This document shows, in pieces, positions 26,190-64,000 of a stretch of DNA of 64,000 nucleotides (its first letter is position 1; each line of letters opens with the position of its first letter). Source of the DNA: Carboxylicivirga marina. Lineage in GTDB: Bacteria; Bacteroidota; Bacteroidia; Bacteroidales; Marinilabiliaceae. Location of the stretch: positions 1 to 64,000 of the forward strand of contig NZ_JAENRR010000029.1 of the NCBI RefSeq assembly GCF_016612505.1, in the 5' to 3' direction. Position numbers and translations under genes: made by a program. The notes under the pieces were generated by a model. That model saw only the letters and a program-made list of their open reading frames with translations, had not been told where the DNA came from and ran no database searches.

Positions 26190-27266
26190 CTATTGTTTAG
26201 AATTTATTATTACCTCAATAATTTCAGGGAACAAGCACTGATAATTTTTGCGATTGATTAGAGCAAACTCATGAGGATAACCATTATCCCACCAGATGGG
26301 GCAAATACCTCTTTTTATACAAGCCTTCGTATAATACTCGGCATGCCGCATGCGATCCCGGATATTTTCATTGTTCACTGTACCCCACTCTCCCATTATA
26401 ACGGGAATACCTTTTGATAGATAATGTTCAACTAATCTATCCAATTCCCTATCCAAAGCTACTTTATCCTCATCTGCCCCCCAGTCTTTGCGAGTTTTTT
26501 CGAGGCACAACTTCCAAGGGTAATAATTATGTATCGATACAATAAGGTTTTTATCGTCGGGCAATTGAAAATCATTTAAAGCATTTGGTATCGATGAAGC
26601 CGCATAAGGTGATATCATCAGATAACGATCTTTGTTTTTCTTGCCTGTAGTTCTGATGGCATCCACGCATACCTGATGAAATTGATTGAGGCAATCACGA
26701 CTTTCAGCACTACCGCCATTCCACTCTTCAGGTGTATTCTTCAACCTTACTTCATTTAAGGTTTCAAATAGGAGTTTCTCAGGATAATTCTTAAAATACT
26801 CAGCTATTTGTGTCCATACGAGCCTCAGTTGTTTTTTCACACTCTCACACTCCTTATAGGTCGCGATTACCCATTCTTCATCATGATGAATATTGATAAT
26901 CACGTACATGTCATTATCCAAGCCATAATTCACAACCTCTTCCACTCGATGTAACCAAGCTGGCTCAATTTGATATTCAGGACCATCTCCAATATGGTAT
27001 TGCCAGGTCACCGGCACTCTTAGCGTATTAAAACCCTTTTCTTTTATAACATTAATAAGCTCCCTAGTGGCTTTAGGATTGGCCCAGGCTGTTTCATCTT
27101 TCCCTTTAGAATCAAGTGTATTTCCAAGATTCCAGCCTACGCCCATATCACGTACAAATTGCATGTGTTTGTTATTCTGAATTTCAAAACCTGCTAGTGT
27201 ATTTTCCTGAGCATGGCTCAATAAAAAACTAAGAGTTATAATTAATGATAAGCTTAATGTTTTCAT
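26190..27266 (-). CDS. GH5 endo-beta-1,4-glucanase (GH5_4-like)
   Basis: A 358-residue secreted enzyme (signal peptide about 1-19) made almost entirely of one TIM barrel. GVGWNLGNTLD near the N-terminus, acid/base E172 in FETLNEVR and nucleophile E293 in VIMGEWG match clan GH-A family 5. The wording of these motifs fits subfamily 4, which includes endo-beta-1,4-glucanases and xyloglucanases. It is the last gene of the long operon, 25 bp after a sulfatase. It lacks a lipobox and T9SS tail, so a periplasmic location is likely, acting on imported oligosaccharides. The subfamily needs a profile search. Confidence 0.88.
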   Translation of the reverse strand: MKTLSLSLIITLSFLLSHAQENTLAGFEIQNNKHMQFVRDMGVGWNLGNTLDSKGKDETAWANPKATRELINVIKEKGFNTLRVPVTWQYHIGDGPEYQIEPAWLHRVEEVVNYGLDNDMYVIINIHHDEEWVIATYKECESVKKQLRLVWTQIAEYFKNYPEKLLFETLNEVRLKNTPEEWNGGSAESRDCLNQFHQVCVDAIRTTGKKNKDRYLMISPYAASSIPNALNDFQLPDDKNLIVSIHNYYPWKLCLEKTRKDWGADEDKVALDRELDRLVEHYLSKGIPVIMGEWGTVNNENIRDRMRHAEYYTKACIKRGICPIWWDNGYPHEFALINRKNYQCLFPEIIEVIINSKQ

Positions 27267-27291
27267 GAGAAATAGGTTCTAAGAATGTCGT

Positions 27292-28764
27292 TTAGTAGGT
27301 ATTTGGTTTAACAAACTCACCCGTTGATACTTTCCATTGTTCAAGGTAGTCTTTCATCTCTTTCACCACCTCAGGGTGTTGTTCAGCCACATTATCCATT
27401 TCATAAGGATCAGTATCATGATCGTACAAAAACTCATGGCCTAATTCGGTTACTATTAAACGAAAGCGCGATCCACTCACCGCTTGTGCCTGCCATATTT
27501 CTGAGATGGCATACTTACGCACGGATTCGATTTTACCAGACAATACAGGCACAATACTTTTGCCATTCTGCGCCGTTTTCTCAGGCTTTTTAATACCTGC
27601 TATTTCAAAGGCAGTCGGCACTAAATCCATTAATTCAACTGGCATATCTGAAACCACATCTCTTTGAAAATGCTTTGGATAACTTATAATTAATGATGCC
27701 AGCAACGACTCTTCAAACAAAGAACCCTTACCGTCGATACCATGGTTGCCAAGGAAAATAGAATGATCAGAAAAGAAAACGATCACGGTATTGTCATACA
27801 AGCCACTTTCTTTTAGTTGTTCTACCAGGTTCCCAATCATCTTATCCATAAACATCACATTAGCTACTTCCCCTTCACGCCTGCGTGCCAGGTTTTCTGC
27901 ATTGGGTAGTTTACCATGCGAGTACTTGGTTAATAATTCGGGCACTTCATGCCCAAAGCTATTGGTTTTAGCGGCAGGAATATCAATTGCTTTAGCGGCT
28001 TGTTGATATTGAGTAGGTGCATCATACGGATCGTGCGGCAAACAGAAGTTAAACCACAAGAAGAAAGGTTTTTCAGCATCCTTTTGAGTCTCCAACCAGT
28101 TTTCACCTACCATGGTGGTGTAACCATCCAGGTAATGCACATCATCATCCATGGTGCTATGACTGTACCACGACCAGCCGCCCTGTTTGTTATCATCCAG
28201 AAACTGCTCATACTTACCTTCATCTTTAAGAAATTGAATGAACACATCTTGCTTTCCATACGGCTTTTTGAGGTTTAGTTTTTTCCACAACTGATAACGC
28301 TCACCTGTAGCTTTGGCATAATCAAAACCATAACTCAACAAGGCCTCTTCTTTTGACTGCTTAAAGGATTTTGGTCGCATATGGGTTTTTCCAATATAGG
28401 CTGTAGTGTAGCCATGTTCCTGAAGAACCTGCGGAAAGGTCCATACATCTTCTGGCAGTAATTTTCGATGTCCGTTACGGTAAAAACCTAATTCATGAGG
28501 ATACAGATTGGTTAATAATCCATTTCGGGAAGGTGCACACATTGGCGCTTGACAAACTGAGTTCTTAAAATAAACACCATCACTTGCCAATTGGTCTAGA
28601 TTTGGTGTAATGCCAAAGCCATCCCCACATTTATTCATAAAGCGAGGCATTAAATCATCGCATTCGATAAACAAAATATTCGGACCTTTTTTGGCCAAAA
28701 CTTCTCCAATATTTAGTAGTAATACTGCTATTAAGAAGGTGAATAAATAACTATTTCTCATCAT
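27292..28764 (-). CDS. Sulfatase (type I, formylglycine), CAPSR
   Basis: A 490-residue secreted type I sulfatase (signal about 1-24). The maturation motif is CAPSRNG with C76, which must be converted to formylglycine; an upstream DD pair (ECDDL) and FFSDHS supply metal ligands. The substrate-binding half is unlike the other sulfatases here, and the C-terminus (FLYDHDTDPYEMDNVAEQH) is the usual family end. It lies between a GH3 and the GH5 gene. The sulfated position it cleaves cannot be read from sequence. A second in-frame ATG follows at once (28761). Confidence 0.93.
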   Translation of the reverse strand: MMRNSYLFTFLIAVLLLNIGEVLAKKGPNILFIECDDLMPRFMNKCGDGFGITPNLDQLASDGVYFKNSVCQAPMCAPSRNGLLTNLYPHELGFYRNGHRKLLPEDVWTFPQVLQEHGYTTAYIGKTHMRPKSFKQSKEEALLSYGFDYAKATGERYQLWKKLNLKKPYGKQDVFIQFLKDEGKYEQFLDDNKQGGWSWYSHSTMDDDVHYLDGYTTMVGENWLETQKDAEKPFFLWFNFCLPHDPYDAPTQYQQAAKAIDIPAAKTNSFGHEVPELLTKYSHGKLPNAENLARRREGEVANVMFMDKMIGNLVEQLKESGLYDNTVIVFFSDHSIFLGNHGIDGKGSLFEESLLASLIISYPKHFQRDVVSDMPVELMDLVPTAFEIAGIKKPEKTAQNGKSIVPVLSGKIESVRKYAISEIWQAQAVSGSRFRLIVTELGHEFLYDHDTDPYEMDNVAEQHPEVVKEMKDYLEQWKVSTGEFVKPNTY

Positions 28765-28801
28765 TAATCATTTTTTATTTTTTTTCAAAAACCTCAACTT
28801 C

Positions 28802-31051
28802 CTATTCAAAACAAAAAGAGTCAGAAAGTACATGTAGCGAGTTTCCTCCAACAAAGACGTTAAAAACACCAGGCTCCAACACCTTTTTATTATCGTTATT
28901 ATAGAATGTGAGCTGTGAAGCCTTGATGTTAAATTCAATTACGCGTGACTCATTAGCTAACAAAGTCACCTTTTGATAATCCTTCAACTCCTTTACAGGC
29001 CGAGTAAGACTGGCTGTTTGATCCTGCAGGTACAATTGTACTATCTCTGTTCCTTTTCGGCTGCCTGTATTGGTTAGGGTAACATTCATCTTTATATTAC
29101 CCGCATCATTCATTGTCGTATCCGAAAGCAGCAAATTGGAATAATCAAAACTAGTATAGGTCAGTCCATAACCAAAAGGAAAGGCTGGTAAAAATCCAGC
29201 ATCCAGATAATGGCTTTTATTCCCAAGTGAACTTTGCCAGGCGCCAACCGGAATATCATCCATATGAACGAACGATTCCTTATCGGCCGGACGGCCAGTA
29301 TTCTTTTGATTATAATAGATAGGTAACTGTCCTGCACTTTTCGGCCAAGTGATAGGTAATCTACCCCCTGGCTCTCTACTGCCTGTCAATACATCATACA
29401 ATGCTGGCCCTCCAAGCGTACCCGGATGCCAGGCCATCATAACAGCATCAACAAAAGGCAATACTGCTGAAATATTAATCGGTCGCCCCGCCATAATCAC
29501 CAATACAATTGGTTTGCCGGTTTGGCTTAGCTCATAGAGTAATTCTTCCTGAACACCAGGCAAACGAATATCGGCACGGCTATGTGCCTCGCCCGACAAG
29601 ATGGCCTCCTCGCCACCTACAAATACAATCACATCTGACTTTTTAGCCTTAGCTACTGTCGCTTGAAACTGTTTCTTTGAGTTATCGCGACTGTATTCTA
29701 ATCCATTGATAAATTGCGTAGATGCATTTTGTTCAAAAGCATCTTTAACAGTGACAGTCCGTGCCTTGTCACCATCAAAGGTCCAGGTACCTAACTGATC
29801 ATGCGGTGCATCGGCTAAAGGTCCGGTTAATAAAATCTTCTGTTCAGCTTTTAATGGCAATAAGTTGTTATCGTTTTTAAGCAGAACAAAGCTATTCACT
29901 GCGGCATCATAGGCCGCCTTCATACTTTCTTCGGCATACATCTGACCAGGGTGATTATCGGGTATATATGGAGCTTTAAATAATCCCAATTGTATCTTTA
30001 CTCTTAAAATATTCCGAACCATATCATCTAAAACATCCATACTCACCTCTCCAGTTTCAATGAGTTGCTTTAAATGATTCTGATATGCAGCACTGGTCAT
30101 TTCCATGTCTAAACCCGCCATGGCGGATAGTTTGCCGGCTTCCTTTTCATTGGCTGCAAAGCCATGTGGTATCATTTCTGTTACCGAATTCCAGTCACTC
30201 ACTACAAAACCATTAAAGCCCAGCTGGTCGCGTAGTATATCCCGTAAGATAAATTTATTTCCTGTTGCCGGAACACCGTTTACATCATTAAATGAAGACA
30301 TGATGGTGGCAGCTCCTGCATCTATAGCTGCCTTAAATGGAGGTAGATATATGTTTTGCATTTCAGCATTATGAATCACCGCCGAATTGTAATCACGGCC
30401 GCCAATGGCCGCTCCATAAGCTAAAAAATGCTTGGCACAAGCTGCCATAGAGCGTGGGTCTGATAAACTATCCCCTTGGAAACCTCTGATGTATGCTTTG
30501 GCCAAAATCGATGCTAAATACGGATCTTCCCCCGGCGACTCGGCCACTCTTCCCCAACGGCTATCACGAGCAATGTCAAGCATGGGAGCAAAAGTCCAGC
30601 GAATACCTTGCGATGAAGCCTCAAGGGCTGAAACCCGGGCACAGTCATAAGCTGTTTGCTCATCCCAACTGGCTGCTAAACCAATAGGAATGGGGAAGAT
30701 GGTTTTAAAACCGTGAATCACATCACGGGCAAAAATAAGTGGAATACCCAATCGACTCTCTTCAACAGCGATACCTTGCAACTCCTTGACATATTCAACA
30801 TTCATCACATTGAGTACGCTGCCTACCTGTCCATCACGAACGGCTTGTTTAAATTCCTCAGACAATGCCCCTTTTACTCGACTTGACGTACCTCTTAATG
30901 CTGTTTGACCTATTTTATCGTCAATGGTCATTTGGGCCAATAACTTTTCAATCTGCTGCTCCTCTTGATTAATCTTTTTAGGTGCGCAGCATACCATTAA
31001 AAAACATGCTGTAACTAAAACCAATCTTGTTGCCAATCTATTCGTTTTCAT
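28802..31051 (-). CDS. GH3 beta-glucosidase-like lipoprotein
   Basis: A 749-residue exo-acting enzyme with an N-terminal lipoprotein-like signal (MVCCAP). It has the three-domain GH3 plan: a TIM barrel (about 30-370) with nucleophile D286 in FVVSDWNSV, an alpha/beta sandwich (about 390-600, FVGGEEAILSGEAHSR) and a C-terminal fibronectin-III-like domain (about 655-745). KHF and the active-site SDW signature fit beta-glucosidases, although beta-xylosidases share the fold. It would release terminal glucose or xylose from oligosaccharides made by the GH5 and GH9 enzymes. It lies between a sulfatase and the CE4 gene. Confidence 0.92.
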   Translation of the reverse strand: MKTNRLATRLVLVTACFLMVCCAPKKINQEEQQIEKLLAQMTIDDKIGQTALRGTSSRVKGALSEEFKQAVRDGQVGSVLNVMNVEYVKELQGIAVEESRLGIPLIFARDVIHGFKTIFPIPIGLAASWDEQTAYDCARVSALEASSQGIRWTFAPMLDIARDSRWGRVAESPGEDPYLASILAKAYIRGFQGDSLSDPRSMAACAKHFLAYGAAIGGRDYNSAVIHNAEMQNIYLPPFKAAIDAGAATIMSSFNDVNGVPATGNKFILRDILRDQLGFNGFVVSDWNSVTEMIPHGFAANEKEAGKLSAMAGLDMEMTSAAYQNHLKQLIETGEVSMDVLDDMVRNILRVKIQLGLFKAPYIPDNHPGQMYAEESMKAAYDAAVNSFVLLKNDNNLLPLKAEQKILLTGPLADAPHDQLGTWTFDGDKARTVTVKDAFEQNASTQFINGLEYSRDNSKKQFQATVAKAKKSDVIVFVGGEEAILSGEAHSRADIRLPGVQEELLYELSQTGKPIVLVIMAGRPINISAVLPFVDAVMMAWHPGTLGGPALYDVLTGSREPGGRLPITWPKSAGQLPIYYNQKNTGRPADKESFVHMDDIPVGAWQSSLGNKSHYLDAGFLPAFPFGYGLTYTSFDYSNLLLSDTTMNDAGNIKMNVTLTNTGSRKGTEIVQLYLQDQTASLTRPVKELKDYQKVTLLANESRVIEFNIKASQLTFYNNDNKKVLEPGVFNVFVGGNSLHVLSDSFCFE

Positions 31052-31084: not shown

Positions 31085-31720
31085 TTAACCATCAGCTCTA
31101 AGTGCTTCAAAACTATAACCCATGCCTTTCCAAATCGGTATCAAATGTTTTAATGCTTCTAAGGTGTGAGTTCGTTCATGACATAAAATGACAAGCTTAT
31201 CTCCATGCAAGTCACTTAAATTGTCAACAATCATTTCAACTTCCACCTCTGGTTTAGCATCCCGAGCATAAGCATTAATTTTATAGCTGGTCATTCCAAG
31301 GCTATCCACTAATTCATCTATAAAGATATTACTTTTTAAAAATGGTGCTCTAAAGGTTGAGGGCTCATAGTTGAGTTGCTGTTTGTACAAATTCTGAAAA
31401 GTGATTAACTCTTCCCTCACATCTGCTTCTGATAATTCCGTTAAATCCTTATGCGTCAATCCATGATTTCCAACCTGGTGCCCTTTGCTTAGAACTTTTT
31501 TACAAAGAGCGATTTGAAGCTCAGCTTTCTTCCCCATATGGTAAAATGTAGCTTTCACATTGTATTGGTCAAATAACTCCAGAAATTGTTTTGTTAATGC
31601 TCCAGATGGTCCGTCATCTATTGTCAGGTAGATTGTTTTTTGCTTTGTATTTGTTCCGTCTGCTGCAAAAACATTGTATAGACTTAAAAGAAATACAGTA
31701 AATATTATAAGTCGATTCAT
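31085..31720 (-). CDS. Polysaccharide deacetylase (CE4/NodB)
   Basis: A 211-residue secreted protein (signal about 1-20) covering just the NodB homology domain. Motif 1 is TIDDGP (D35, D36), motif 2 is NHGLTH (H86 and H90, metal ligands), motif 3 is FRAPF (R124) and motif 5 includes LCHERTH. All metal and catalytic residues appear intact. Family members remove N- or O-acetyl groups from chitin-type sugars, peptidoglycan or xylan. Its place between GH3 and a clan GH-A hydrolase suggests the target polysaccharide is acetylated. Confidence 0.9.
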   Translation of the reverse strand: MNRLIIFTVFLLSLYNVFAADGTNTKQKTIYLTIDDGPSGALTKQFLELFDQYNVKATFYHMGKKAELQIALCKKVLSKGHQVGNHGLTHKDLTELSEADVREELITFQNLYKQQLNYEPSTFRAPFLKSNIFIDELVDSLGMTSYKINAYARDAKPEVEVEMIVDNLSDLHGDKLVILCHERTHTLEALKHLIPIWKGMGYSFEALRADG

Positions 31721-31751: not shown

Positions 31752-33452
31752 CTAATCAATCAGCAACTTAAACGACTGAATATCACTATCAACATTCATC
31801 TGGCAAACATAAATACCAGGAGGTGTATCAAGCAAATATCTTTGTTTAGTTGATGTAACTTTATTCTCAAAACAAAGTTTTCCATTCAAATCCCATAGTT
31901 GTATTGATGCATTGGAGAATGGCTTATTTATTTTCACCTCTAAATGCCCCAAGGTCTTATCGAAATATGTACTGGTCAGTGATTCATCATTCTTTAACTC
32001 ATCAACGCTTGTAAAAACCTTATTTACTTTAATAACAGTCAAAGAAAAAGGAGGTAAATCAATTTGCTGATTGGCCGTAAAAGTATTCTTCGATATACCG
32101 CTTCCTTCAAAAACTGGTGAATCATACACATTGCTGCACGTAAGCTGATTAATTTCTGCTGTTTCATCTGACAACAAGTGCCGAATATCAACATTCGTAA
32201 CTGCATGTTCATGAATATTCAGGAGTACCAGCTGCTCACTGTTTTGATTAATAAATTGCAGACCCTGAATGGCACCTACACCTGCAACAGCCTCTGGATT
32301 ATTTGATATATCAACCGAACGCCGATAAAGACACTCATCGGCAGCCTGATAAAGATAAGCTAAGGCAATAGCAACAGGCCCTGCTTCCATTTGATCCTTG
32401 TTAATAACATCCGGATGATTGGTGACATGATGATACATCAGGTTAGTGATTTTCTCACCCAATTTAAGCCATTGCATGGTATAAGCTGCAGCTCTCAATC
32501 CTGATGCCCATGAGCCTGGGGTGTTATCTTTCGTTGCGCCATATTCGGTCAACCACAACTCGAAGTCATCAGGCACCATGGCATAATCATCTGATTTTTC
32601 AAGAGGATATTGAATCCCTTCGGCAATAGCTATTTTTGCTGTTTGCACATTCGTCACAGCTGTTTGATCTCCATAGTAAGTGCTTAAATAATGGTGTTGC
32701 ACCACTCCATGTATCATACCTGCTAATTCGGATTCATTTTTCAAGCCATTAAAAATTGTATTATTCCAATTATCTCTTGATGAGCTTCCTCCTTTCGTTG
32801 TAATCATCAGTATTTTCATATCTGGATATACCTGCCTGATATGTTGACAGATTACCTTCGAATGCTGAAGATACAATTCCGGATTGGCAGCATAGATAGC
32901 GGCATGTTCATTGTCAAAGTAAAACTCATTCCCCAGCTCAACCACTTCGGGTAGCTGCCCGGCCTGCTGAAAGGCTTGAAGAGCTGCCAACATATCATCA
33001 ACCTTTAGCAGCAAAGTATTTTCACTTATCAAAGTGGCTTCATCGGCTTCATATGAAACACCTGTGATGGGTGTTGGCCTTGCCATATTGACCACATAAA
33101 TTAATTTAACCCCCTCATCAATTCCATTGACCACCATGGGAATGGTAAAGGGCGTTTTGCCGCCACTTTTTGTTCCTTCGATAAAGGTTCCGGTGCGCCA
33201 ATCCCAATAGTTAGCTTGTGTACCTGCCGGATACCGAATTACACCAGCTTGCGATTCACTCACCAATGACAGAAATGCTTCATCGGTCCATGATGGCCCT
33301 TCTGTTGAGCGCCCATTATACCCCATTGTTAATTGCTCAGACCGCATAAAATCAGTATTGAGATGAAGCTGAACCTGAGTATACCCTGAAATGGAAACAG
33401 TCATTAATAATAAATGAAGCCAAAGCATTTTATTCTTCAACAGTTTTTTCAT
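31752..33452 (-). CDS. Clan GH-A glycoside hydrolase with T9SS tail, family unclear
   Basis: A 566-residue secreted protein: signal (about 1-25), TIM barrel (about 30-380), beta-sandwich (about 385-480) and C-terminal T9SS sorting domain (about 490-566, IQLWDLNGKLCFEN, PPGIYVCQMN). The barrel has a clan GH-A active site: acid/base E176 in VVELGNEFYF and nucleophile E303 in LWLTEYG. IRYPAGTQANYWDW resembles GH51/GH79/GH39-type enzymes, but no family fits well by eye. The beta-sandwich fused to the barrel is also typical of those families. T9SS sorting places it on the cell surface or outside. It starts 18 bp after the GH9-like gene. Confidence 0.75.
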   Translation of the reverse strand: MKKLLKNKMLWLHLLLMTVSISGYTQVQLHLNTDFMRSEQLTMGYNGRSTEGPSWTDEAFLSLVSESQAGVIRYPAGTQANYWDWRTGTFIEGTKSGGKTPFTIPMVVNGIDEGVKLIYVVNMARPTPITGVSYEADEATLISENTLLLKVDDMLAALQAFQQAGQLPEVVELGNEFYFDNEHAAIYAANPELYLQHSKVICQHIRQVYPDMKILMITTKGGSSSRDNWNNTIFNGLKNESELAGMIHGVVQHHYLSTYYGDQTAVTNVQTAKIAIAEGIQYPLEKSDDYAMVPDDFELWLTEYGATKDNTPGSWASGLRAAAYTMQWLKLGEKITNLMYHHVTNHPDVINKDQMEAGPVAIALAYLYQAADECLYRRSVDISNNPEAVAGVGAIQGLQFINQNSEQLVLLNIHEHAVTNVDIRHLLSDETAEINQLTCSNVYDSPVFEGSGISKNTFTANQQIDLPPFSLTVIKVNKVFTSVDELKNDESLTSTYFDKTLGHLEVKINKPFSNASIQLWDLNGKLCFENKVTSTKQRYLLDTPPGIYVCQMNVDSDIQSFKLLID

Positions 33453-33470: not shown

Positions 33471-36323
33471 CTACCGTTTCACCACCTTCATTATTTTTCG
33501 ATAATCCTTATGCACTACTTCCACCAGATACACACCAGCACTTAGATCTGTTCCAAGTTGAAGTCCCTGAGGAGAAACCTGTTTTAAATGCTTTATTAAT
33601 TTTCCACTTAAGGAGCGCACGATAATCTCTACATTACCCAAGTCATAGGTTGTGGCAATTGAAAAAGAATGTGAAAAAGGATTGGGATATGCACGAACTT
33701 CCAGACTATTGTCTGTGTGAGGTATTGATAGAGATATATCTCCATTATAAGCCTTAGGTGTTCCGCTTTGTTGCGTACCTTTGTCTATCCAGTGAATCGA
33801 CAAATCGGTCCCATCATTATTATAGCCATTACGAACATAAAGGTGATCATCCCCAAAAGCAGTAGTCGACGTAGTCACATCACTAAATTGATCGAGTGTA
33901 CCTAAACTACCATGTCGTAAAACCAAACCGATAGTATTAGTATTAAGATGTATACCTCCATGGCTAAAATCGGCTGATATGCCATGTGCATCTTCAAAGT
34001 CAGTCAAATCACGGGTGACAATTACATAACCATATGGCTCGATCGTTCCGCTCATTAGCTTGCGTCCATTATAACCAGGATAACTAGCACTTGTATTATA
34101 ATGCTCCAAATAAATATTTTCAAGACTGATGGTTTTATTGCTTGTATTGTAAATCTCTACAAAAGAGGCATTGGGTGTGGCATGGCTGTTCACTTCATTA
34201 ATTTTTAAATCACCATCAAGAGGAGCTTCAGGCTCTGAAACGATATCTGAATAACTATTAAAACGGCTCAACATGTAAAACAGCGTACTTGAAATGGGCA
34301 CCACACTCTCGCCAGTCTGGTATTTTTCGAAGCTCTGAATAAAACTTGTCCCATCATTTGTAAAACCCGGTAGAATCGCACCAAGTCCATCTTCATATGA
34401 ACGCTTGAAAAAATTAACCGATGGCGTGATGGTTTCATCCCCTAAACCAACAATGTATGAAGTCGCATAAGGGTTATATCCTGTCAAATGGTTAAATGCC
34501 GCAAGAGCTATTTCAAAGGCCTTTTCATTATTTAGGTAATCAGCATACCCAAGCATATTATAGGCCAGCCGGGCTACTTGAATAGTATTACCAAAATCCG
34601 TTGTTCTGTCAATTGGATGTTGCGGGAAACCAAACGGACTCATAGGTTTGGCAGACCAGAAATCCAAAAAGGTTTCCATCACCCAGGTCACACGCTCACG
34701 CATACCTTGGGTGCGCGCAATGTTGTAATAGCGGCATAATGAAGGGATAGAGCCATTATCCAGCTCTGCATAGGTATTCCCTGTTTCTGAAGGCCATTTT
34801 GTGCCGTCTTCTTTTGTAAAAATACCATTCTTAAATTTAGCCGCATTAAACATCTCATCGGCCTTATTAAAGTACTTCGTTTCTCCGGTAGCATAAGCCA
34901 TTTCAACGGCTGCTCCCAATAAATCAACGGATTGTCCTTTAAAGCTTTTACCGATATTTTCGTCAACCAAAAGTTCATTGTTAATGACAAAATCCCAGGC
35001 TAATTCAGCGGTTGACAAAGCCTCTGCCGCTATGTCGGGTTCAGAATCTTTAAAAACCTGATAGGCCAGCGCCAAAGCCTTAGCAATACGGGCTGAGTTA
35101 TAGGCATCCACATTGGTAACCCAATAATAATATATGCGAGGAGGTGTCGTTTCTCGAATCCTTCCGGCAGGCCAACTCCCGTCCTTGTTATGTGTGCGAA
35201 AAATATGCTCTAAACCATATTTAATCTCATCCTCAAGAGCCAGTTTATCATCCAAATTAGTTGTATGGAAATGCCCCAGGCACATATCGGCAATGGCCTT
35301 GGCGGTTCGACCCATCTTTGAATCCCGTGAATGGGCATCAAACCATCCATATGGAGGTACATCATACGTGCCTGTCACCGTAAATTCCTCAGTGCCATTA
35401 TTATCAAAAACAGTTGCCTCGTTGATGGTTTGCGTCTCAGGATAAAAGTGATTGTATTTCCAAAATCCGTTAAAAAAATCGCTATACCTAAGTGTTCCGC
35501 CTTTATTATACTTAATCTCAAAATAAATATCATTCCCTATAAGCATATTGGTGACCAAGCCATTGGCCTGAATTTGATAATGACCTTCGGTACTTAATCC
35601 ACTTACATCGGCCACATAGTAGTATTGCCCCCAGGTAGAGGTAGCAGTCCATTTGGTCATGGTACCGGTCAGTACCGATGTTTGAGAATGTGCATCAACA
35701 ACATTAAAAGTGGGCGCCCCCAGTTCTGTATTGGATATAAGCAAAGCTTCTTTTTTGTGATGTGGCTTCCAACCTAACTGAGGTACTACTAATGCCTCCT
35801 GATAACTATCTTTGATGGGGGCAATATGGAATTGCTGTGCTTCCTTAGCTACATAACTTTGCTGCACGCCAGCTCCTACTGAACTGTAAAAATTATAATA
35901 CGCCACATCCGGGTTAGGGTCTATTACTGCTGGCACTTCATCAATGGCTGACAAGGCTAATCCTGATTTGACATTTAGGATGCGATAAAAACCATCCGTT
36001 TTTATCAAGGTCCATTTTTGATGTTCCTGTGTACTCCAGGGTTCTGTTAAAACCTTTTCATCTGCCAAAAGTGAAGCATTTTTAACAGCTAAAACCTCAT
36101 TACTTGCAATATTTACAATACGGAATGTTTCATCTCCATTATCTAATATATGCCATTCGCTTTTTGCTCTGTTGTAAACAAATTTTGAATTAGCCGAGGT
36201 ATTGGCATTTAAATACCTTCCGGTACTACGCGTTTCAATTGAATAGGGTTGTATTGACTGAAATTGACCAAATACGTCAATGAAAGACAGTAATCCTAAT
36301 AGTATGTATATATGTTTGTGCAT
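33471..36323 (-). CDS. Atypical GH9-like protein with ricin-type, LTD and T9SS domains
   Basis: A 950-residue secreted protein; the start is the ATG at 36323 because the codon before it is TTG. Order: signal (about 1-19), a ricin-type beta-trefoil (about 25-168), an Ig-like domain (about 180-270), an (alpha/alpha)6 GH9-like barrel (about 275-690), a lamin-tail domain (about 706-840) and a T9SS tail (about 868-950, PNPFSHSFSI). The barrel resembles GH9 (TGYNPYATSYIVG near the end), but the usual DAGDYGKY is replaced by FDAHSRDSKMGR (D329, D334). A glutamate (E672) stands where the GH9 acid is expected. It may be a divergent hydrolase or a binding protein. It lies 10 bp after a sulfatase. Confidence 0.75.
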   Translation of the reverse strand: MHKHIYILLGLLSFIDVFGQFQSIQPYSIETRSTGRYLNANTSANSKFVYNRAKSEWHILDNGDETFRIVNIASNEVLAVKNASLLADEKVLTEPWSTQEHQKWTLIKTDGFYRILNVKSGLALSAIDEVPAVIDPNPDVAYYNFYSSVGAGVQQSYVAKEAQQFHIAPIKDSYQEALVVPQLGWKPHHKKEALLISNTELGAPTFNVVDAHSQTSVLTGTMTKWTATSTWGQYYYVADVSGLSTEGHYQIQANGLVTNMLIGNDIYFEIKYNKGGTLRYSDFFNGFWKYNHFYPETQTINEATVFDNNGTEEFTVTGTYDVPPYGWFDAHSRDSKMGRTAKAIADMCLGHFHTTNLDDKLALEDEIKYGLEHIFRTHNKDGSWPAGRIRETTPPRIYYYWVTNVDAYNSARIAKALALAYQVFKDSEPDIAAEALSTAELAWDFVINNELLVDENIGKSFKGQSVDLLGAAVEMAYATGETKYFNKADEMFNAAKFKNGIFTKEDGTKWPSETGNTYAELDNGSIPSLCRYYNIARTQGMRERVTWVMETFLDFWSAKPMSPFGFPQHPIDRTTDFGNTIQVARLAYNMLGYADYLNNEKAFEIALAAFNHLTGYNPYATSYIVGLGDETITPSVNFFKRSYEDGLGAILPGFTNDGTSFIQSFEKYQTGESVVPISSTLFYMLSRFNSYSDIVSEPEAPLDGDLKINEVNSHATPNASFVEIYNTSNKTISLENIYLEHYNTSASYPGYNGRKLMSGTIEPYGYVIVTRDLTDFEDAHGISADFSHGGIHLNTNTIGLVLRHGSLGTLDQFSDVTTSTTAFGDDHLYVRNGYNNDGTDLSIHWIDKGTQQSGTPKAYNGDISLSIPHTDNSLEVRAYPNPFSHSFSIATTYDLGNVEIIVRSLSGKLIKHLKQVSPQGLQLGTDLSAGVYLVEVVHKDYRKIMKVVKR

Positions 36324-36333
36324 CAATTCAGGT

Positions 36334-37791: not shown

Positions 37792-37879
37792 ACTTTTACA
37801 TTTTTTCAATGCCTAATTCCGTTGCTCAATTGATTATAAATATCTACTCTGAAGCAGCCTATAAACATTCCTTTCACAG

Positions 37880-50280: not shown

Positions 50281-50307
50281 TCCTCCTCTCAATAGATGAG
50301 AGGAGGA
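50281..50307 (-). other. Strong stem-loop between susD and GH3
   Basis: TCCTCCTCTC and GAGAGGAGGA form a perfect 10-bp stem with a 7-nt loop, 24 bp past the SusD stop. No U-tract follows on the minus strand. It may protect the SusC/SusD mRNA 3' end after processing, or lower expression of downstream enzymes relative to SusCD. Confidence 0.6.
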
Positions 50308-51953: not shown

Positions 51954-51999
51954 TTGCTTACAATTTTCTTTTACCATTAATCAAGTGAATAATAGCTCA

Positions 52000-56553: not shown

Positions 56554-58023
56554 TTACTTTTTAATGTATGCATTAACATCTAATCGCCATTGATGGAGCT
56601 CCTCCAGTAATGCCTGAGTTAGATCCGGCATCTGCTCCGACAAATCATTCTTTTCTTCAGTATCCTCTTCAATATTATAGAGTTCTACAATATCTTGATC
56701 ATAAAACTCAATTAATTTGTAAGGTCCCTTTCTGATGGCTGTACTGTTTGAGTCGCCGGTTGCATGTGGACGATCAACTGGCGAGTGCCAAAAAACAGCA
56801 CGTTCCGGATTTGGATCCTGCTGCTCTTTTAATGCCCACACAACACTTTCTCCATCTAAATGCGCTTGAGGCAATGGCTCTAAACCAACCATTTCAAGGA
56901 TGGTAGGAAAGAAATCATTACCGGTTACCAAAGCATTACTCTGCATGCCTTTTTTTGTAATACCCGGCCATTTTACAATCATTGGCTCCCGCACACCACC
57001 TTCGTATAAATGCCCTTTACCTGCCCTAAGAGGGTAATTGGATGTGGCCACTCTTCTGGGGTTAAAACCTCGATTCGATAAGCCTCCATTATCCGAGAAG
57101 AAAATAATAATGGTATTATCCAATTGTCCCAGCTGCTTTAAGGTTTCGGTAATACGTCCTAAGCTTTCGTCCATACTATAAACCATACCAGCATAAGTCG
57201 CATTATCCTGATGCATCTTTGTTGTACCTGTTCCCTCTTCAATAAACGGCTCACCGGTGTAGGTCATGCTCTTCTTCTTGGCCTCGAACTTGTCGACGTG
57301 TTCTTGCTTGGCTTCAATGGGCTCATGAACGGCATAATGTGAAACATACGCAAAAAATGGTTTTTCCGGATGTGTTGCCTGATGATTATTCAAAAACTGA
57401 ATTGTTTCATCTGTAATTCTATCCGTAAGATATTCCCCATCGGGTGCGTCATCTAGTCCTTCAATAGGTTTCTTTTTTGTTGTCCGGTGACTCTCATTAT
57501 AAGGTGCAAAAAATGAGATAGGCGATCCGGCATGCCCGCCAGCGACATTTATATCAAAACCTACATCTTCAGGCATTGTGCCCGAGAATGCTAAATGCCA
57601 TTTACCCGCAAAAAAAGTGGTATAACCACCTGCTCGCATAGCATCAGCAATGGTCACTTCGTCAGCTTCCAGTCGTGCTTCATCACCCGGATAAACACCT
57701 TTCGTTGGATTTAATTTTCCTTCACCTGGACCTGGCATTTGAGCCCTGGCGGGATAACGACCAGTTACTAAAGAATAACGTGAAGGCACACATCTTGGGT
57801 GTGTTGCATAAGCGTTATTAAAACGTACGCCTTCATTAGCCAATTGATCAATATTGGGAGTTTCATAAAATGGAGAACCATTATAGCCTACGTCCATCCA
57901 TCCTAAATCATCTACCAGAAAGAATAAGACGTTAGGCTTTTTCGCTTGTTTTGATTTAGTACTATTTGTGCACGATAATAACCCAAATGTTATAACCAAT
58001 GCTAAAAAAATATTGCGTTTCAT
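56554..58023 (-). CDS. Sulfatase, CVPSR group, second copy
   Basis: A 489-residue lipoprotein sulfatase (LLSC, Cys18), first gene of the minus-strand run and divergent from the hybrid regulator. LVDDLGWMDVGYNG, the maturation motif RCVPSRYS (C78) and FFSDNGGLSNRG, then LRAGKGHLYEGGVREP, make it a paralogue of 37880-39343. It has a longer insert after the PGPG segment (KLNPTKGVYPGDEARLE). A strong terminator follows directly, so its level may be set apart from the rest of the operon. Regiospecificity is unknown. Confidence 0.93.
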   Translation of the reverse strand: MKRNIFLALVITFGLLSCTNSTKSKQAKKPNVLFFLVDDLGWMDVGYNGSPFYETPNIDQLANEGVRFNNAYATHPRCVPSRYSLVTGRYPARAQMPGPGEGKLNPTKGVYPGDEARLEADEVTIADAMRAGGYTTFFAGKWHLAFSGTMPEDVGFDINVAGGHAGSPISFFAPYNESHRTTKKKPIEGLDDAPDGEYLTDRITDETIQFLNNHQATHPEKPFFAYVSHYAVHEPIEAKQEHVDKFEAKKKSMTYTGEPFIEEGTGTTKMHQDNATYAGMVYSMDESLGRITETLKQLGQLDNTIIIFFSDNGGLSNRGFNPRRVATSNYPLRAGKGHLYEGGVREPMIVKWPGITKKGMQSNALVTGNDFFPTILEMVGLEPLPQAHLDGESVVWALKEQQDPNPERAVFWHSPVDRPHATGDSNSTAIRKGPYKLIEFYDQDIVELYNIEEDTEEKNDLSEQMPDLTQALLEELHQWRLDVNAYIKK

Positions 58024-58308: not shown

Positions 58309-61300
58309 ATGCACAATAACAAACTATTCATTCCGACAGTTATCCTGTTACTTCTCTTCACCTCTTTTCCTGATCTAATTGGACAAGAAAAATTAAAATT
58401 TAAACAACTATCAGTTGAGGAAGGTATTAAAAACAGTCGGGTAGTTGATCTCACACAAGACGGTGATGGGTTTATGTGGTTTGCAACCCATGATGGCGTA
58501 GATAAATTTAATGGCACTGACTTTAAACACTACTCACTATCCTATCCAGCAGATCACACCATTAAAGATGATATTGTTAATTGCCTGGAATTATCACCTG
58601 TATATCATATCCTATGCGGCACTAAAAATGGTAATCTTTTTGGATACAATAAGAAAAGAGACAAATTCGAGAAACTATTGCCCAATGCCAAACATGAGAA
58701 AATATATAACATAAACTCAATTCTTTCAGTGAATAGGAAGGAGATCTGGATTGGCGCCACATCCGGTTTCTTTCATTATAATATTACAACACAAGAACTA
58801 ACTCCGATTACTGGTATTTCATCCAGAGTCAATAGTATTAGTTCCATATCTGACAAATCACTTTTAATCGGCACACTATCGGGACTTTATCAAATCAACA
58901 CAACAACAAAAGCCATTGAAAACATCCATATTCGTTCACAGCTCTTGAGTCAACTCAACCAACAAGACATTATGGTTACTTATAAAAGCGATAAGCATCT
59001 TTTGTTGGGAACAAGAAATTCAGAAGCATATAAATTCAAAATTGATTCCGACTCCATCAGATTTATTACCAAAGAAACGCTTGTGGATTCGGACAACAGA
59101 AGACCAATATACGACATCAAGCTTAGCCCGGATAAACAGAGCTATACAATTGCCATTGATGGTTACGGCCTGGTCTTTACCGATCTTGATCTTAAGCAAA
59201 CCAATACGTACTTTGCCGATAACACGGAAGGAAGTTTAACAACCAATGGCCTTTATCAGGTACATTATAGTTCCGACAATATATTGTGGTTAGCTACCTA
59301 TGGTGGTGGTATTATTATGTCTGACCCAAATAAGAAGAAATTTAAAGTCGCCAAAAAAGTTCCCTTCAACTCAAATAGCATTCGTAATAATATAGTTAAT
59401 GCAGTTCTTGAGTACAAAAACAGCATTTGGTTTGGTACAAAAGATGGCATAAGTATATATTATCCTTCAACTGACAAGTGGAAACATCTACCACCCTTAT
59501 CTCGTTCGGTTAAAAGGCCATTTCAGGTGATGTCCATGTGTCTTGGCGAAGATGGATCAATTTGGGTAGCGACCTACGGACGAGGTCTTATTAAAATTAA
59601 CCCCCAAACGTTTCAACGCGAACAAATTTACAAAGCCAGTAAAGGTTGGAAACGCACACAAACAAATCACCTGTATCAGGTGATAAAAGATGCCGAAGGC
59701 CGAATATGGTCCGGTGGCATCTGGGGTGGAGTCACCATCATTGATGAAAGTCGACAACGAGTGGATAAAATTGACATCACCAATGTCAGGTCACTTCACG
59801 AAGAAAATGAATTGATATATATCGGAACCCTTTTCGGTTTATTCATTATTGACAAACAAACACTTAAAATAACGCGCCCCACGAACAACACCCTACTTTC
59901 CAGTCGAATAATAAGCATGTGTAAGCATCCTTCAAAAGAACTTCTATATGTCGGAACCGATGTGCACGGTCTTCATATCTGGGATCTGGAAACAGATAGT
60001 TTAGCACCAGTTAAGAGCTCCAATAGCTTACCAACAAACTTTGTACGCAGTATCATATTTGACAATCAAGAACAATTATGGGTGAGTAGTACAGGTGGAC
60101 TGTCGTTGTACAACGATTCAAATATGCGTTATGATACGTATAATATTCGTGATGGACTGCCGAACACTGAATTTTCTGAAAACGCAGCCATCAAACACTC
60201 TTCCGGCCAATTAATATTTGGCGGTTCACGAGGTGTATCGTGGTTTTATCCAAAGGATATCACCAAGTCAAAACAGGTGGTTAAACCTATTTTAACAAGT
60301 TTTGAAATGTTTGGCCAAACGGTTCAAATCAGCAACGATGGTCCACTCAATGAGCACATTAATTTACAAGAGAAGATTCATCTGGCGCACAACCAAAATT
60401 CATTGAGTTTTAGGTTTGGCAGTATTTGTTACACCAACCCGCAGAATGTCAGCTACAAATGGAAACTGGAAGGATTTGAGGATAATTGGAATGGCCCGTC
60501 CAACACAAGGGAAGCTATCTACTCCAAATTACCTCCTGGTAATTTCATCTTTAAAGTAATGGTGAGCAACGATGATGGTGTTTGGCAGGATGAAGTTAAA
60601 ACACTGACACTGAAGATCGATAAACCATTTTGGAAAACACCCCTAGCCTATGTTTTATATGGCATCATTCTCATCATATTGATTTTACTCAATATGCACT
60701 ACTACCATACGATAGTTCAGGACAGGCATTATGCCGAAAAGCAACAATTCTTTATTTCCATTGCCCACGACCTGCGCACGCCTCTTTCATTGATTAAGCT
60801 ACCCATAGAAAAGATGCTTGAGAAAATGAATAGCAATGAACTAGAAGGTTATAATATTAAACTGGTAAAGCGTAATGTTGATCGCCTGACCAACATGGTG
60901 AATCAATTACTTGATTTTCAGAAAGCCGACTTGAAAAAGATGCAATTACAGGTTGAGTTAACACAATTTGAACACTTTATCAGGGAACGCATTGACACCT
61001 TTTCCCCTTTATCGACAGAGAAAAACATCAGCATTGATATGAGTTTCAAAGATGATGGATGTGAATTATGGCTAGACCGCATCAAAGTGGAGAAAATAAT
61101 GTTTAACCTCTTGTCTAACGCATTTAAATATACCGACGTGGATGGTTCAATTAAAATCAGAACCAAAACGGATAACAAATATGCCATTATTGAAGTGGAA
61201 GATACCGGTGAAGGTATTCCTTCCAATCAACAGAAAAAAATATTTCAACGTTATTACAGGGCATCAAATGCTATTAACTCAAGAGAAGTAGGTAGCGGAG

Positions 61301-62262
61301 TAGGATTGATGTTAACCAAACAGTTGGTTGAGTTACATGGAGGCTTGATTGACTTTGTAAGTGTCGAAAAAGTGGGTTCTATATTTACCATCAAATTACC
61401 TCTTGGAGATGCCCACTTTTCGGAAGAGCACATCAGGCAGGAAGAAACAGAAAAAAGTGAGTTGATCCCGATTGTTGCAACACAAGCTCCAACTGTTTTA
61501 GAAGAAACCGAAGGCCCTAAACTATTGATTGTAGAAGATCATCCAGAGCTATTGGAAAGTCTTCAGGCTGAATTAGCTGGCCAATACCAGGTATATACCG
61601 CCGCAGATGGTGCAGAAGGATTATCAGTGGCTATGAAAGAGTTGCCCGATATTGTTATATCTGATGTGATGATGCCAAAAATGAATGGACACCAGTTGTG
61701 TACGAGATTGAAGAACGAAATATCAACCTGTCACATTCCTATTATTTTACTTACGGCACTTGATTCGCCTGAATACAAACGCGAAGGGCTGGAGTATGGT
61801 GCTGATGCCTATCTTGAAAAGCCTTTTGATATTCAATTAGTCAAAACTCAAATCAAAAACCTACTTAAGAACAGGCAGCTTTTAAAAGGTAAATTTCTTG
61901 AACCTTCAACTCAGGTTGAAGACGTATCACCAACCAACACCGACCAGGTATTTTTAAATGACATCAAAGATTTAATTATTAACAACATTGATAGCGAAAA
62001 GCTAACCGTTGAGTTTATTGCTTCTGAATTAGGAATGAGTCGCCCAGTTCTTTATCGTAAAATTAAATCACTTACAGACTTGTCGCCCCAACAGTTCCTG
62101 ATGACGGTTAAACTAAAAGAGGCCATTCGCATTATGAAGGAAGAGGGCCATAACATTAGTGAAACAGCCTATCGGGTTGGCTTTACCGATCCGAAATATT
62201 TTAGCCAGACCTTTAAAAAATATTTTAAAGTTACGCCAAGTCAGTATTTAAAGGACAATTAA
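58309..62262 (+). CDS. Hybrid two-component system regulator (HTCS)
   Basis: A 1317-residue one-protein sensor and regulator of the Bacteroidetes HTCS type. Order: signal (about 1-25), two seven-bladed Reg_prop propellers (about 30-680), a Y_Y_Y domain (about 700-770), one membrane helix (about 780-800), HisKA with H820 in SIAHDLRTPL, HATPase (about 930-1040, GSGVGLMLTKQLVELHGG), a receiver with D1119 in VISDVMMPKMNG and an AraC-type DNA-binding domain (about 1215-1317). These proteins bind oligosaccharides in the periplasm and activate the adjacent locus. It is divergent from the sulfatase/SusCD genes, 285 bp away, the usual position. Confidence 0.95.
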   Translation: MHNNKLFIPTVILLLLFTSFPDLIGQEKLKFKQLSVEEGIKNSRVVDLTQDGDGFMWFATHDGVDKFNGTDFKHYSLSYPADHTIKDDIVNCLELSPVYHILCGTKNGNLFGYNKKRDKFEKLLPNAKHEKIYNINSILSVNRKEIWIGATSGFFHYNITTQELTPITGISSRVNSISSISDKSLLIGTLSGLYQINTTTKAIENIHIRSQLLSQLNQQDIMVTYKSDKHLLLGTRNSEAYKFKIDSDSIRFITKETLVDSDNRRPIYDIKLSPDKQSYTIAIDGYGLVFTDLDLKQTNTYFADNTEGSLTTNGLYQVHYSSDNILWLATYGGGIIMSDPNKKKFKVAKKVPFNSNSIRNNIVNAVLEYKNSIWFGTKDGISIYYPSTDKWKHLPPLSRSVKRPFQVMSMCLGEDGSIWVATYGRGLIKINPQTFQREQIYKASKGWKRTQTNHLYQVIKDAEGRIWSGGIWGGVTIIDESRQRVDKIDITNVRSLHEENELIYIGTLFGLFIIDKQTLKITRPTNNTLLSSRIISMCKHPSKELLYVGTDVHGLHIWDLETDSLAPVKSSNSLPTNFVRSIIFDNQEQLWVSSTGGLSLYNDSNMRYDTYNIRDGLPNTEFSENAAIKHSSGQLIFGGSRGVSWFYPKDITKSKQVVKPILTSFEMFGQTVQISNDGPLNEHINLQEKIHLAHNQNSLSFRFGSICYTNPQNVSYKWKLEGFEDNWNGPSNTREAIYSKLPPGNFIFKVMVSNDDGVWQDEVKTLTLKIDKPFWKTPLAYVLYGIILIILILLNMHYYHTIVQDRHYAEKQQFFISIAHDLRTPLSLIKLPIEKMLEKMNSNELEGYNIKLVKRNVDRLTNMVNQLLDFQKADLKKMQLQVELTQFEHFIRERIDTFSPLSTEKNISIDMSFKDDGCELWLDRIKVEKIMFNLLSNAFKYTDVDGSIKIRTKTDNKYAIIEVEDTGEGIPSNQQKKIFQRYYRASNAINSREVGSGVGLMLTKQLVELHGGLIDFVSVEKVGSIFTIKLPLGDAHFSEEHIRQEETEKSELIPIVATQAPTVLEETEGPKLLIVEDHPELLESLQAELAGQYQVYTAADGAEGLSVAMKELPDIVISDVMMPKMNGHQLCTRLKNEISTCHIPIILLTALDSPEYKREGLEYGADAYLEKPFDIQLVKTQIKNLLKNRQLLKGKFLEPSTQVEDVSPTNTDQVFLNDIKDLIINNIDSEKLTVEFIASELGMSRPVLYRKIKSLTDLSPQQFLMTVKLKEAIRIMKEEGHNISETAYRVGFTDPKYFSQTFKKYFKVTPSQYLKDN

Positions 62263-62992: not shown

Positions 62993-63096
62993 AACAGCAT
63001 CCTTTGTAATCATTTGCATACAATTGAATGACATTCCTGAATCATTTCCTACCCTTATTGAACGATTCCTCGTACTTTAACAGATTTTACAGCTCG

Positions 63097-63104
63097 TATT
63101 TTTG
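63097..63104 (+). promoter_or_regulatory. Possible -7 box of the GH95-like gene
   Basis: TATTTTTG matches TAnnTTTG and lies 28 bp before the ATG at 63132. The -33 element is poor (TTTA at 63076-63079, 17 bp away), so activator dependence is possible. Confidence 0.45.
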
Positions 63105-63131
63105 CCTTTATCGATATTAATTCAATCGTTT

Positions 63132-64000
63132 ATGAATAAAATTTGTATGAACAGAAAGTATTTAGGAATGATGGTGGCTTCTTTGCTGCTTGTCTTAGGC
63201 TTTATTAACGGTTTCGCCAACGATACTATTAAAACCAATACAGAGCCCATTTATGAACTATGGGAACGTGAGCCTGTACCTCATCTCATCATAGAAACCG
63301 AAGCTGATGTAAGAGGAAATAAACTTAAATACTTTCCCTACGATGAAGCTTGGGAACAATGGTCTTATCCCATTGGCAACGGGTACATGGGCGCCAACAT
63401 ATTTGGCCGAACAGATGTTGAGCGCATTCAACTGACGGAAAAGACCTTGTTCAACACAGGTCTTTATGGCCTGGGTGGCCTGACAAGTTTTGCGGAAGTC
63501 GATATCCATTTTAACCATAAGGATGTGGAGGACTATAAGCGCTCACTCAACCTGAATGAAGCAATTGGACACGTTAGTTATCTGTCGGATGGTGTTAGGC
63601 ATACTCGCGAAATGTTTATCAGCTATCCTGATCAGGTGATGATAATTAATCTCAAGGCGGACAAGCCGGGCGCACTCTCATTCAAACTCGCACCTCAGAT
63701 TCCCTATTTGAATAGCTTGCGTGTGGCTGACAAAAAAACTGGTACTGTAGTCGCAAAGGGCAACGAAATTATCCTTTCCGGCACTCTGCCTAACGAAGGG
63801 AATAATTTTGAAGCGCAATTCAGGATACTTAACGATGGAGGCACACTTACTGCAGAAGGTGGTTCAATTAAAGTTGAAGGGGCAAACAACGTTTCAATTC
63901 TCATAGCTACAGGAACCAACTACAAACTCTCCTCAGAAGTCTTTCTGAACAATAATCGCATTAAACTCGATCCAAGTAAATCACCGCATGAGCGCCTTAG
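63132..64000 (+). CDS. GH95-type glycoside hydrolase, N-terminal part (cut by window edge)
   Basis: An open frame of 289 codons from the ATG at 63132 (MNKICMNRKY; 63147 is an alternative) to the right edge without a stop. A signal peptide (about 1-29) is followed by the GH95 N-terminal beta-sandwich domain: YPIGNGYMGANIFGRTDVER and IQLTEKTLFN match the family's opening motif, and HTREMFISYPDQVMII follows. GH95 enzymes remove alpha-L-fucose or alpha-L-galactose; the catalytic barrel lies beyond the window. It stands just downstream of the HTCS on the same strand and is probably part of the same polysaccharide locus, implying a fucosylated or galactosylated side chain. Confidence 0.85.
   Translation, partial: MNKICMNRKYLGMMVASLLLVLGFINGFANDTIKTNTEPIYELWEREPVPHLIIETEADVRGNKLKYFPYDEAWEQWSYPIGNGYMGANIFGRTDVERIQLTEKTLFNTGLYGLGGLTSFAEVDIHFNHKDVEDYKRSLNLNEAIGHVSYLSDGVRHTREMFISYPDQVMIINLKADKPGALSFKLAPQIPYLNSLRVADKKTGTVVAKGNEIILSGTLPNEGNNFEAQFRILNDGGTLTAEGGSIKVEGANNVSILIATGTNYKLSSEVFLNNNRIKLDPSKSPHERL

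Follow-up and report, generated by a model that had tools for sequence, protein, structure and literature searches.

A conserved sulfatase-rich locus with cellulase-type glycosidases in Carboxylicivirga marina: a candidate system for a sulfated beta-1,4-glucan-type polymer

The first 64,000 nucleotides of contig NZ_JAENRR010000029.1 of Carboxylicivirga marina (assembly GCF_016612505.1), referred to here as the window, contain a polysaccharide utilization locus (PUL) in which glycoside hydrolases (GHs) of cellulase-type families are interleaved with eight type I (S1) sulfatases. The PUL is genuine and conserved, and its composition is unusual; its gene content, gene order and conservation, the intact motifs of its sulfatases and, in a relative, a match to cellobiose phosphorylases are all directly observed. 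Such a locus probably serves the degradation of a polymer that has a backbone of the beta-1,4-glucan type and is sulfated, acetylated and perhaps also fucosylated; the sulfated glucan of red algae and the sulfated xylofucoglucan of brown algae are candidates. A more far-reaching proposal is that this is the first defined locus for a sulfated cellulose-like algal glucan (mainly beta-1,4-linked and probably 6-O-sulfated), that the proteins encoded at 31752-33452 and 55301-56494 are founding members of two carbohydrate-active enzyme (CAZyme) families, and that in relatives the locus feeds a cellobiose phosphorylase. This proposal is tentative, and its chance of being right as a whole is somewhat short of even.

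Conservation of the GH9-sulfatase core

An earlier note on this DNA had suggested that the same gene set be sought in other genomes. The GH9-sulfatase core is indeed shared: among the 71 genomes of the family set, C. marina included, 12 contain an ortholog of the GH9 enzyme encoded at 46132-47835 (threshold, 53% identity), and all 12 also encode S39432 at 79% identity or more (sulfatases are named here after the first position of their genes). S39432, which is 79-99% identical in the 11 other genomes, is the most conserved enzyme in the genome comparisons. The GH9 and S39432 genes share one contig in 11 of the 12 genomes; in the remaining one, G410, they lie on two contigs, with the break inside the operon. 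All 12 loci, which belong to five genera, have the order GH3, GH9, S44518, S40977, S39432 and then an S56554- or S37880-type sulfatase. S44518 adjoins GH9 in each of them and in a second copy present in G401, and the GH3 enzyme of the core (GH3b) is 66-80% identical in the 11 other loci. A hybrid two-component system regulator (HTCS) beside the operon start and a SusC/SusD pair are in place in 11 of the 12 loci. The exception is G415, where the contig begins at GH3; two other short contigs of this genome carry candidate SusC/SusD pairs (60/55% and 37/33%).

Outside the core, counterparts of S43021 are found in the loci of G401, G397, G399 and G467, and S27292 is 93% identical in G401, with relatives at 39-40% in G425 and G415. 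Homologs of the CE4-type (carbohydrate esterase family 4) gene are present in the loci of G401 (69%) and of G425 and G415 (46%), and the GH5 ortholog of G401 aligns in two pieces (89% and 82%). G404, which contains an S39432 fragment (90%) and no GH9 ortholog, was counted as GH9-negative; decay of its locus was first suspected, but the fragment extends up to the end of its contig, which is explained more simply by a break in the assembly there. L052, L053 and L054 were taken to be the same as G407, G405 and G399, and each was counted once. Many open reading frames (ORFs) in the fetched stretches of relatives were compared with the window genes only, and selected proteins were scanned with Pfam.

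The specificity of the GH9-sulfatase link was assessed against other GH9 loci. A GH9 search of genome contigs returned at least 583 relatives, of which the best 80 were kept; three of these 80 carry the same operon (56-59% identity; two titled Carboxylicivirga, one Bacteroidales). When the 80 loci were searched at E<=1e-10 with a hidden Markov model built from all eight sulfatases of the locus, a sulfatase was present in six: all three orthologs, with four to five each, and three of the 77 others, with one to two each. Among the 45 loci not shorter than 21 kb, five have a sulfatase, the three orthologs included. Since sulfatases cluster, this conservation of linkage is a better test than density. 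The genome of C. marina has 112 PF00884 matches in 5.65 Mb, a count that includes fragments and one match below the family cut-off; an even spread would give about 0.6 per 32 kb, and the locus has eight.

The strongest individual piece of evidence for a beta-1,4-linked glucose product comes from the GH94 genes present in the operons of relatives. In G425 and G406, genes for a major facilitator superfamily (MFS) sugar transporter and a GH94 enzyme lie between S44518 and S40977. The GH94 protein of G425 matches cellobiose phosphorylase at 1340 bits, versus 488 bits for chitobiose phosphorylase; that of G406 was identified by Pfam only. G410 has a GH94 C-terminus just ahead of S40977 at the contig start and, past S44518 at the other contig end, an NrtR/AraR-type regulator domain. 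No GH94 gene is part of the locus in the window. Matches to GH94 occur somewhere in all 13 genomes searched and are full-length and strong in 12, the genome of the window included; the strong matches of G410 are C-terminal pieces of 102 positions.

Gene content of the locus and its enzymes

The operon consists of 18 consecutive minus-strand genes at 26190-58023 of the window, as judged from the ORF list and Pfam, with six sulfatase genes in a row separating the GH9-like gene from the GH9 gene (Table 1). The HTCS and a GH95 gene follow on the plus strand, so the earlier statement that the genes share a single strand does not hold. One SusC/SusD pair, clustered carbohydrate enzymes and a linked, divergent HTCS are the features expected of a Bacteroidota PUL. 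Apart from a GH12-like protein, the rest of the earlier inventory (GH5, GH9, GH9-like, two GH3 enzymes, a CE4 deacetylase, one SusC/SusD pair and an HTCS) is borne out by Pfam, as are the eight type I sulfatases and a GH95 gene just beyond them, which continues outside the window and is full-length there. The contig stops at base 65702, 1.7 kb beyond the window; the remainder of the GH95 gene is the sole long ORF in this interval, and extension of the locus in its own genome ends there. Signature families of PULs for carrageenan, agar, ulvan and glycosaminoglycans (GAGs) are the GH16, GH82 and GH86 galactanases, ulvan lyases, and PL8 (a polysaccharide lyase, PL, family) with GH88; Pfam scans of the 20 proteins encoded at 26190-64000 found none of these.

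Table 1. Predicted features of the locus, in window positions (T9SS, type IX secretion system)
Feature	Position	Strand	Evidence
GH5, endo-beta-1,4-glucanase type, signal peptide-like N-terminus	26190..27266	-	PF00150, 216 bits
S1 sulfatase S27292 (CAPSR)	27292..28764	-	PF00884
GH3 beta-glucosidase, BglX type (GH3a)	28802..31051	-	PF00933/PF01915; NCBIfam BglX, 714 bits (cut-off 666)
CE4-type polysaccharide deacetylase	31085..31720	-	PF01522, 92 bits
Orphan protein X31752, T9SS tail	31752..33452	-	No Pfam match; TIGR04183 tail
Divergent GH9-like protein, ricin-B lectin, LTD, T9SS tail	33471..36326	-	PF00759, 81 bits; PF14200; PF00932; PF18962
S1 sulfatase S36334 (CAPTR)	36334..37809	-	PF00884
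S1 sulfatase S37880 (CVPSR)	37880..39343	-	PF00884
S1 sulfatase S39432 (CSPSR), lipobox-like N-terminus, S1_11-like by PDB neighbours	39432..40949	-	PF00884; PDB
S1 sulfatase S40977 (CGPSR), C-terminal extension	40977..42989	-	PF00884
S1 sulfatase S43021 (CGASR), lipobox-like N-terminus	43021..44499	-	PF00884
S1 sulfatase S44518 (CTPSR)	44518..46128	-	PF00884
GH9, endo-beta-1,4-glucanase type, DAGD and NE motifs intact	46132..47835	-	PF00759, 267 bits
GH3 beta-glycosidase (GH3b), lipobox-like N-terminus	47926..50292	-	PF00933/PF01915
SusD-like glycan-binding lipoprotein	50331..51977	-	PF07980/PF14322
SusC-like TonB-dependent importer	52000..55128	-	TIGR04056, 830 bits
Second orphan protein, T9SS tail	55301..56494	-	T9SS tail only in Pfam
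S1 sulfatase S56554 (CVPSR), lipobox-like N-terminus	56554..58023	-	PF00884, 214 bits
HTCS, divergent	58309..62262	+	Reg_prop, Y_Y_Y, HisKA, Response_reg, HTH_18
GH95 alpha-L-fucosidase (or L-galactosidase), reaching contig base 65588	63102..64000	+	PF22124, 420 bits, complete beyond window

Among solved structures, the GH9 enzyme is nearest to the xyloglucanase BoGH9A (355 bits; next match 240 bits). The GH5 enzyme best matches the endoglucanases 6gl2/6gl0 (419 bits), which we take to be a Zobellia GH5_4 enzyme, and is presumably itself a member of subfamily GH5_4. GH3b is above no NCBIfam cut-off; its best model, also below cut-off, is a flavobacterial beta-xylosidase. For the GH9-like protein, the Pfam score is 81 bits, and the best PDB match reaches only 40 bits. 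A DAHSRD sequence, identical in G401 and G467, replaces its DAGD motif, and a Glu is aligned at the acid position; judged by these motifs, it is a conserved divergent protein and not a normal GH9. The GH95 proteins of the window and of G401 are only 21% identical.

All eight sulfatases combine a PF00884 domain with the C-x-P/A-x-R motif, the formylglycine signature of S1 sulfatases. By pairwise identity they represent about five sequence types: S36334, S40977 and S43021 form one group (33-44%, with S36334 and S40977 at 44%), S37880 and S56554 form another (53%), and S27292, S39432 and S44518 are ungrouped. Of the eight, only S39432 was compared with the PDB. Its best matches are a mucin-desulfating sulfatase (287 bits) and an N-acetylglucosamine (GlcNAc)-6-sulfatase (276 bits), followed by an exo-L-galactose-6-sulfatase (222 bits) and a GH78-linked sulfatase (220 bits). 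S39432 is most like sulfatases working at O6 of gluco-configured sugars. Its alignment with the GlcNAc-6-sulfatase chain spans both the catalytic and the C-terminal part, and Asp-Lys-Arg stands at the corresponding site. The positions of the S1_11 triad are our assumption, so the comparison is a lead rather than a test. According to a study of S1_11 sulfatases (PMC10154612), an Asp/Arg pair recognizes O4 and a His recognizes O3; the N-acetyl pocket is missing from about half of the subfamily, mainly in aquatic members, and the same triad is then used for L-galactose. The S1_11 sulfatases BT4656 and BT3177, treated there, are among the closest known counterparts of S39432, in which the His-bearing stretch differs.

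The probable substrate and its alternatives

In the pathway that we infer, the identity of the polymer, the order of the steps, the cell locations and all activities are predictions. The HTCS would sense oligosaccharides and turn on the divergent operon. The secreted GH5 and GH9 enzymes, together with the T9SS-tailed GH9-like protein and the two orphan proteins, would open the chain, and SusC/SusD would import the fragments. The S1 sulfatases, of five sequence types, would remove substituents together with the CE4-type esterase and with fucosidases. The bare cellobiose-type product would then be converted to sugars by the GH3 enzymes or, in some relatives, by the MFS carrier and cellobiose phosphorylase.

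The surroundings of the locus in relatives provide information about the substituents. Within 20 kb past its HTCS, G401 has two GH29 genes, a GH95 gene, two sulfatases, SASA-/CE2-type esterases and a CE4-GDSL fusion, and its second GH9-S44518 pair (73% and 81% identical to the window) lies among two GH29 genes and a SASA esterase. (This second pair, L187, is at 10801-14123 of G401:C50, with other sulfatase-like genes and a transposase gene nearby.) A side cluster of G399 contains sulfatases, an esterase, a GDSL protein and a GH10 enzyme; one of G397 contains sulfatases, SASA and GDSL proteins, a GH5 enzyme and a GH10 enzyme; G467 has an esterase inside the locus and a GH10 gene at the locus end. 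Together, these genes support an acetylated substrate that perhaps also contains fucose and xylose. Fucosylation, which the earlier note had proposed, is plausible but weaker: the fucosidase genes of G401 argue for it, but the window offers only the GH95 gene beside the locus, with none among the 18 operon genes, before its contig ends at 65702.

The central proposal of the earlier note, a sulfated beta-1,4-glucan-type target, gains support from the BoGH9A and GH5 matches, the GH94 genes of relatives and the GH9-sulfatase core of 12 genomes. Its suggestion of a xyloglucan-like polymer fares less evenly, with no GH31 among the proteins scanned and GH10 in or beside the locus of G399, G397 and G467. 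These GH10 genes speak for an alternative in which the target is a sulfated heteropolysaccharide with a mixed glucose/xylose backbone, or the sulfated xylofucoglucan of brown algae, GH9 and GH5 cutting the glucose stretches and GH10 the xylose stretches. The two GH29, GH95 and acetylesterase genes past the G401 HTCS and the beta-xylosidase model nearest to GH3b fit this alternative as well, and one paper (PMC6298971) mentions both xyloglucans and xylofucoglucans in sulfated form among the substrates from algae. However, the window locus has no GH10, neither GH31, GH43 nor GH115 was found among its Pfam-scanned proteins, and the operon GH94 of relatives points to cellobiose; a mixed backbone is therefore considered unlikely. 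The number of sulfatases, eight, is high for a single simple polymer, and relatives of S39432 are found away from GH9. Both would be expected if one regulator controlled two pathways for two polymers of the same wall, with the beta-glucanases acting on plain cellulose, mixed-linkage glucan or xyloglucan and the sulfatases on a second polymer that is sulfated. This arrangement is improbable given that the sulfatases are interleaved with GH9 and GH3 (and with GH94 in relatives), that there is a single SusC/SusD pair, that the same order is kept in the 12 genomes, and that neither a lyase nor a galactanase diagnostic of a different sulfated polymer was found among the 20 scanned window proteins.

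Some GH9 enzymes are glucosaminidases. Together with the GlcNAc-6-sulfatase among the best matches of S39432 and the presence of a CE4-type gene, this would suit a GlcNAc or glucosamine polymer (sulfated chitin/chitosan-like or GAG-like), from which S39432 would take the 6-sulfate and CE4 the N-acetyl group. But the GH94 enzyme in the G425 operon matches cellobiose rather than chitobiose phosphorylases, GH9 is closest to a xyloglucanase, and no GH18, GH20, GH88 or any PL was found among the 20 scanned window proteins, so a target of this kind is very improbable. Chitosan/GAG, carrageenan, ulvan and plain xyloglucan were set aside as targets on gene content.

Several points weigh against a sulfated beta-1,4-glucan-type substrate, all of the support for which comes from genes and sequences. 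Of the 80 control GH9 loci, 35 are shorter than 21 kb, and sulfatases could thus lie past their ends. Beyond the family, homologs of S39432 (61-68%) occur at five places in four other genomes of 393, and no ORF like the window GH9 was found by BLAST near them in the fetched stretches, one of which is 4 kb only; S39432 alone is thus no marker of a glucan. Nor was a GH9 match found in the fetched stretches around related SusC/SusD pairs (28-33% for SusD; G416, G414, G401:C41 and G425:C78). The His-bearing stretch of S39432 is unlike the S1_11 reference, and L-galactose-6-sulfate is also an S1_11 substrate, according to the part of that study available (PMC10154612). A GH9 enzyme is defined by a two-Asp DAGD motif and a C-terminal acid Glu, a combination not found in the protein at 33471-36326. 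The GH10 genes of G399, G397 and G467 hint at xylose, and the two secreted orphan proteins appear to fall in no assigned family.

Among the closest known systems is the xyloglucan PUL of Bacteroides ovatus, which we take to comprise BoGH5A, BoGH9A and GH3. It shares with the window locus GH5, GH9, GH3 and SusC/SusD, and, as noted above, BoGH9A is the nearest solved structure to the locus GH9. Xyloglucan PULs pair a GH5 or GH9 endo-xyloglucanase with a GH31 alpha-xylosidase. Here, in contrast, no GH31 was found among the scanned proteins of the window and relatives, and eight sulfatases, a CE4-type esterase and T9SS-tailed orphans, all needless for plain xyloglucan, are present. PULs of marine Flavobacteriia for fucose-containing sulfated polysaccharides and sulfated beta-xylan, as described in the consulted portion of PMC6298971, resemble the locus in their S1 sulfatases, SusC/D and GH29/GH95, with GH10 in the xylan type; fucosidases and xylanases are their main enzymes, whereas GH9, GH5 and GH3, with cellobiose phosphorylase in relatives, predominate here. 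The sulfated alpha-mannan PULs of the same source (PMC6298971) likewise pair a hydrolase family for a neutral backbone, GH92, with sulfatases, but differ in backbone and enzyme families. For Latescibacteria, sulfatases together with GH29/GH95 have been proposed in silico to act on sulfated xylofucoglucan; the portion available (PMC4454575) gives a genome inventory with few GH5/GH9 genes and no such locus.

Sulfated beta-glucans of red algae, mentioned in the earlier note, are on record for Kappaphycus, in the form of a glucan with mostly beta-1,4 links. The sulfated glucan of K. alvarezii has about 180 residues and is 64% sulfated on 1,4-linked units according to one report (PMC7997180), and has about 8% 1,3 links according to another (PMC5460208). 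A survey of Marinilabiliales PULs lists a Carboxylicivirga species with 106 sulfatases, and GH9 is not mentioned in its main text (PMC12325347). In agreement with the earlier note, searches of the open literature (supplements excluded) found no described locus with such a set of genes. In that literature, sulfated algal beta-glucans are known chemically, and no experimental degrader was found, only the in silico xylofucoglucan proposal in the part of PMC4454575 available. If the proposed substrate is correct, the locus would supply enzymes for detecting and sequencing sulfated glucan polymers, and would point to algal carbon that is missed by ordinary cellulases. A named strain with the core, Carboxylicivirga mesophila JCM 18290 (L053), could be used for direct substrate tests.

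Orphan secreted proteins and history of the importer

Besides their T9SS tails, X31752 and the protein encoded at 55301-56494 have no Pfam family above cut-off, either as single sequences or as five-member sets. In the X31752 set there is a weak match to PF11790 (E 0.0027, one member only), and an X31752 profile gives weak PDB matches to endo-beta-1,4-galactanase (E 0.006-0.007). Asn175, Glu176 and Glu303 are invariant across five X31752 homologs; by pattern, these G-N-E and T-E positions resemble those of a clan GH-A retaining hydrolase, to which X31752 may belong. Among the 71 family genomes, close homologs of X31752 are present in G415 and G467, and G399 and G397 each have a distant one (20%) in a side cluster. 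Homologs of the protein at 55301-56494 are found in G401, G399, G397 and G467; the side cluster of G399 contains one (59%), as does that of G397. The latter protein is probably what the earlier note had called GH12-like. This assignment was rejected: at E<=10, the Pfam matches of five homologs are confined to the T9SS tail, and neither the single sequence nor the profile has a GH or other enzyme match in the PDB. A GH12 match is also absent for X31752 in the five-member Pfam set and the PDB profile. A class-level search with full-length 55301-56494, in which 187 of 395 genomes matched, was discarded, since the matches listed, other than the protein itself, are C-terminal (residues 231-397) and mostly represent the T9SS tail. 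Structure prediction from single sequences gave low confidence (pLDDT 33 for X31752 and 36 for 55301-56494).

The SusC/SusD pair has a history that differs from that of most of the locus. G401 is the closest genome at the locus, with most genes outside window positions 46057-56548 being 87-99% identical (CE4 69%, GH5 82-89%). At the DNA level, identity to G401 is 90-91% flanking this interval and 71-75% in the aligned pieces inside it, where no alignment is obtained for SusD or the greater part of SusC. For the SusC/SusD stretch at 50328-54843, DNA identity is instead 80.6% to G467, which belongs to another genus, and other aligned pieces of G467 are 65-78% identical. The proteins agree: SusC and SusD are 85% and 88% identical to those of G467, and 41% and 30% identical to those of G401.

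Additional features were seen in and around these loci. A transposase gene and one for a group II intron reverse transcriptase lie at 2449-5536 of L192 (G467:C77), next to the far end of the locus in G467. Very long sulfatases, of 1257-1336 aa, occur near the locus in G406, G399, G403 and G410 and on another contig of G467 (L170:5330-9103, L171:1109-5089, L173:16-3789, L190:12022-15993 and L176:5335-9345); all five scanned have T9SS tails, and three have chitobiase-C/Fn3-associated domains. Elsewhere in the window, at 601-7653, are five tandem ORFs of 444-447 aa, of which the one scanned (601-1938) is redoxin/thioredoxin-like; upstream of them on the same strand are a separate SusC/SusD pair, a FecR gene and an ORF recognized by eye as sigma-factor-like.

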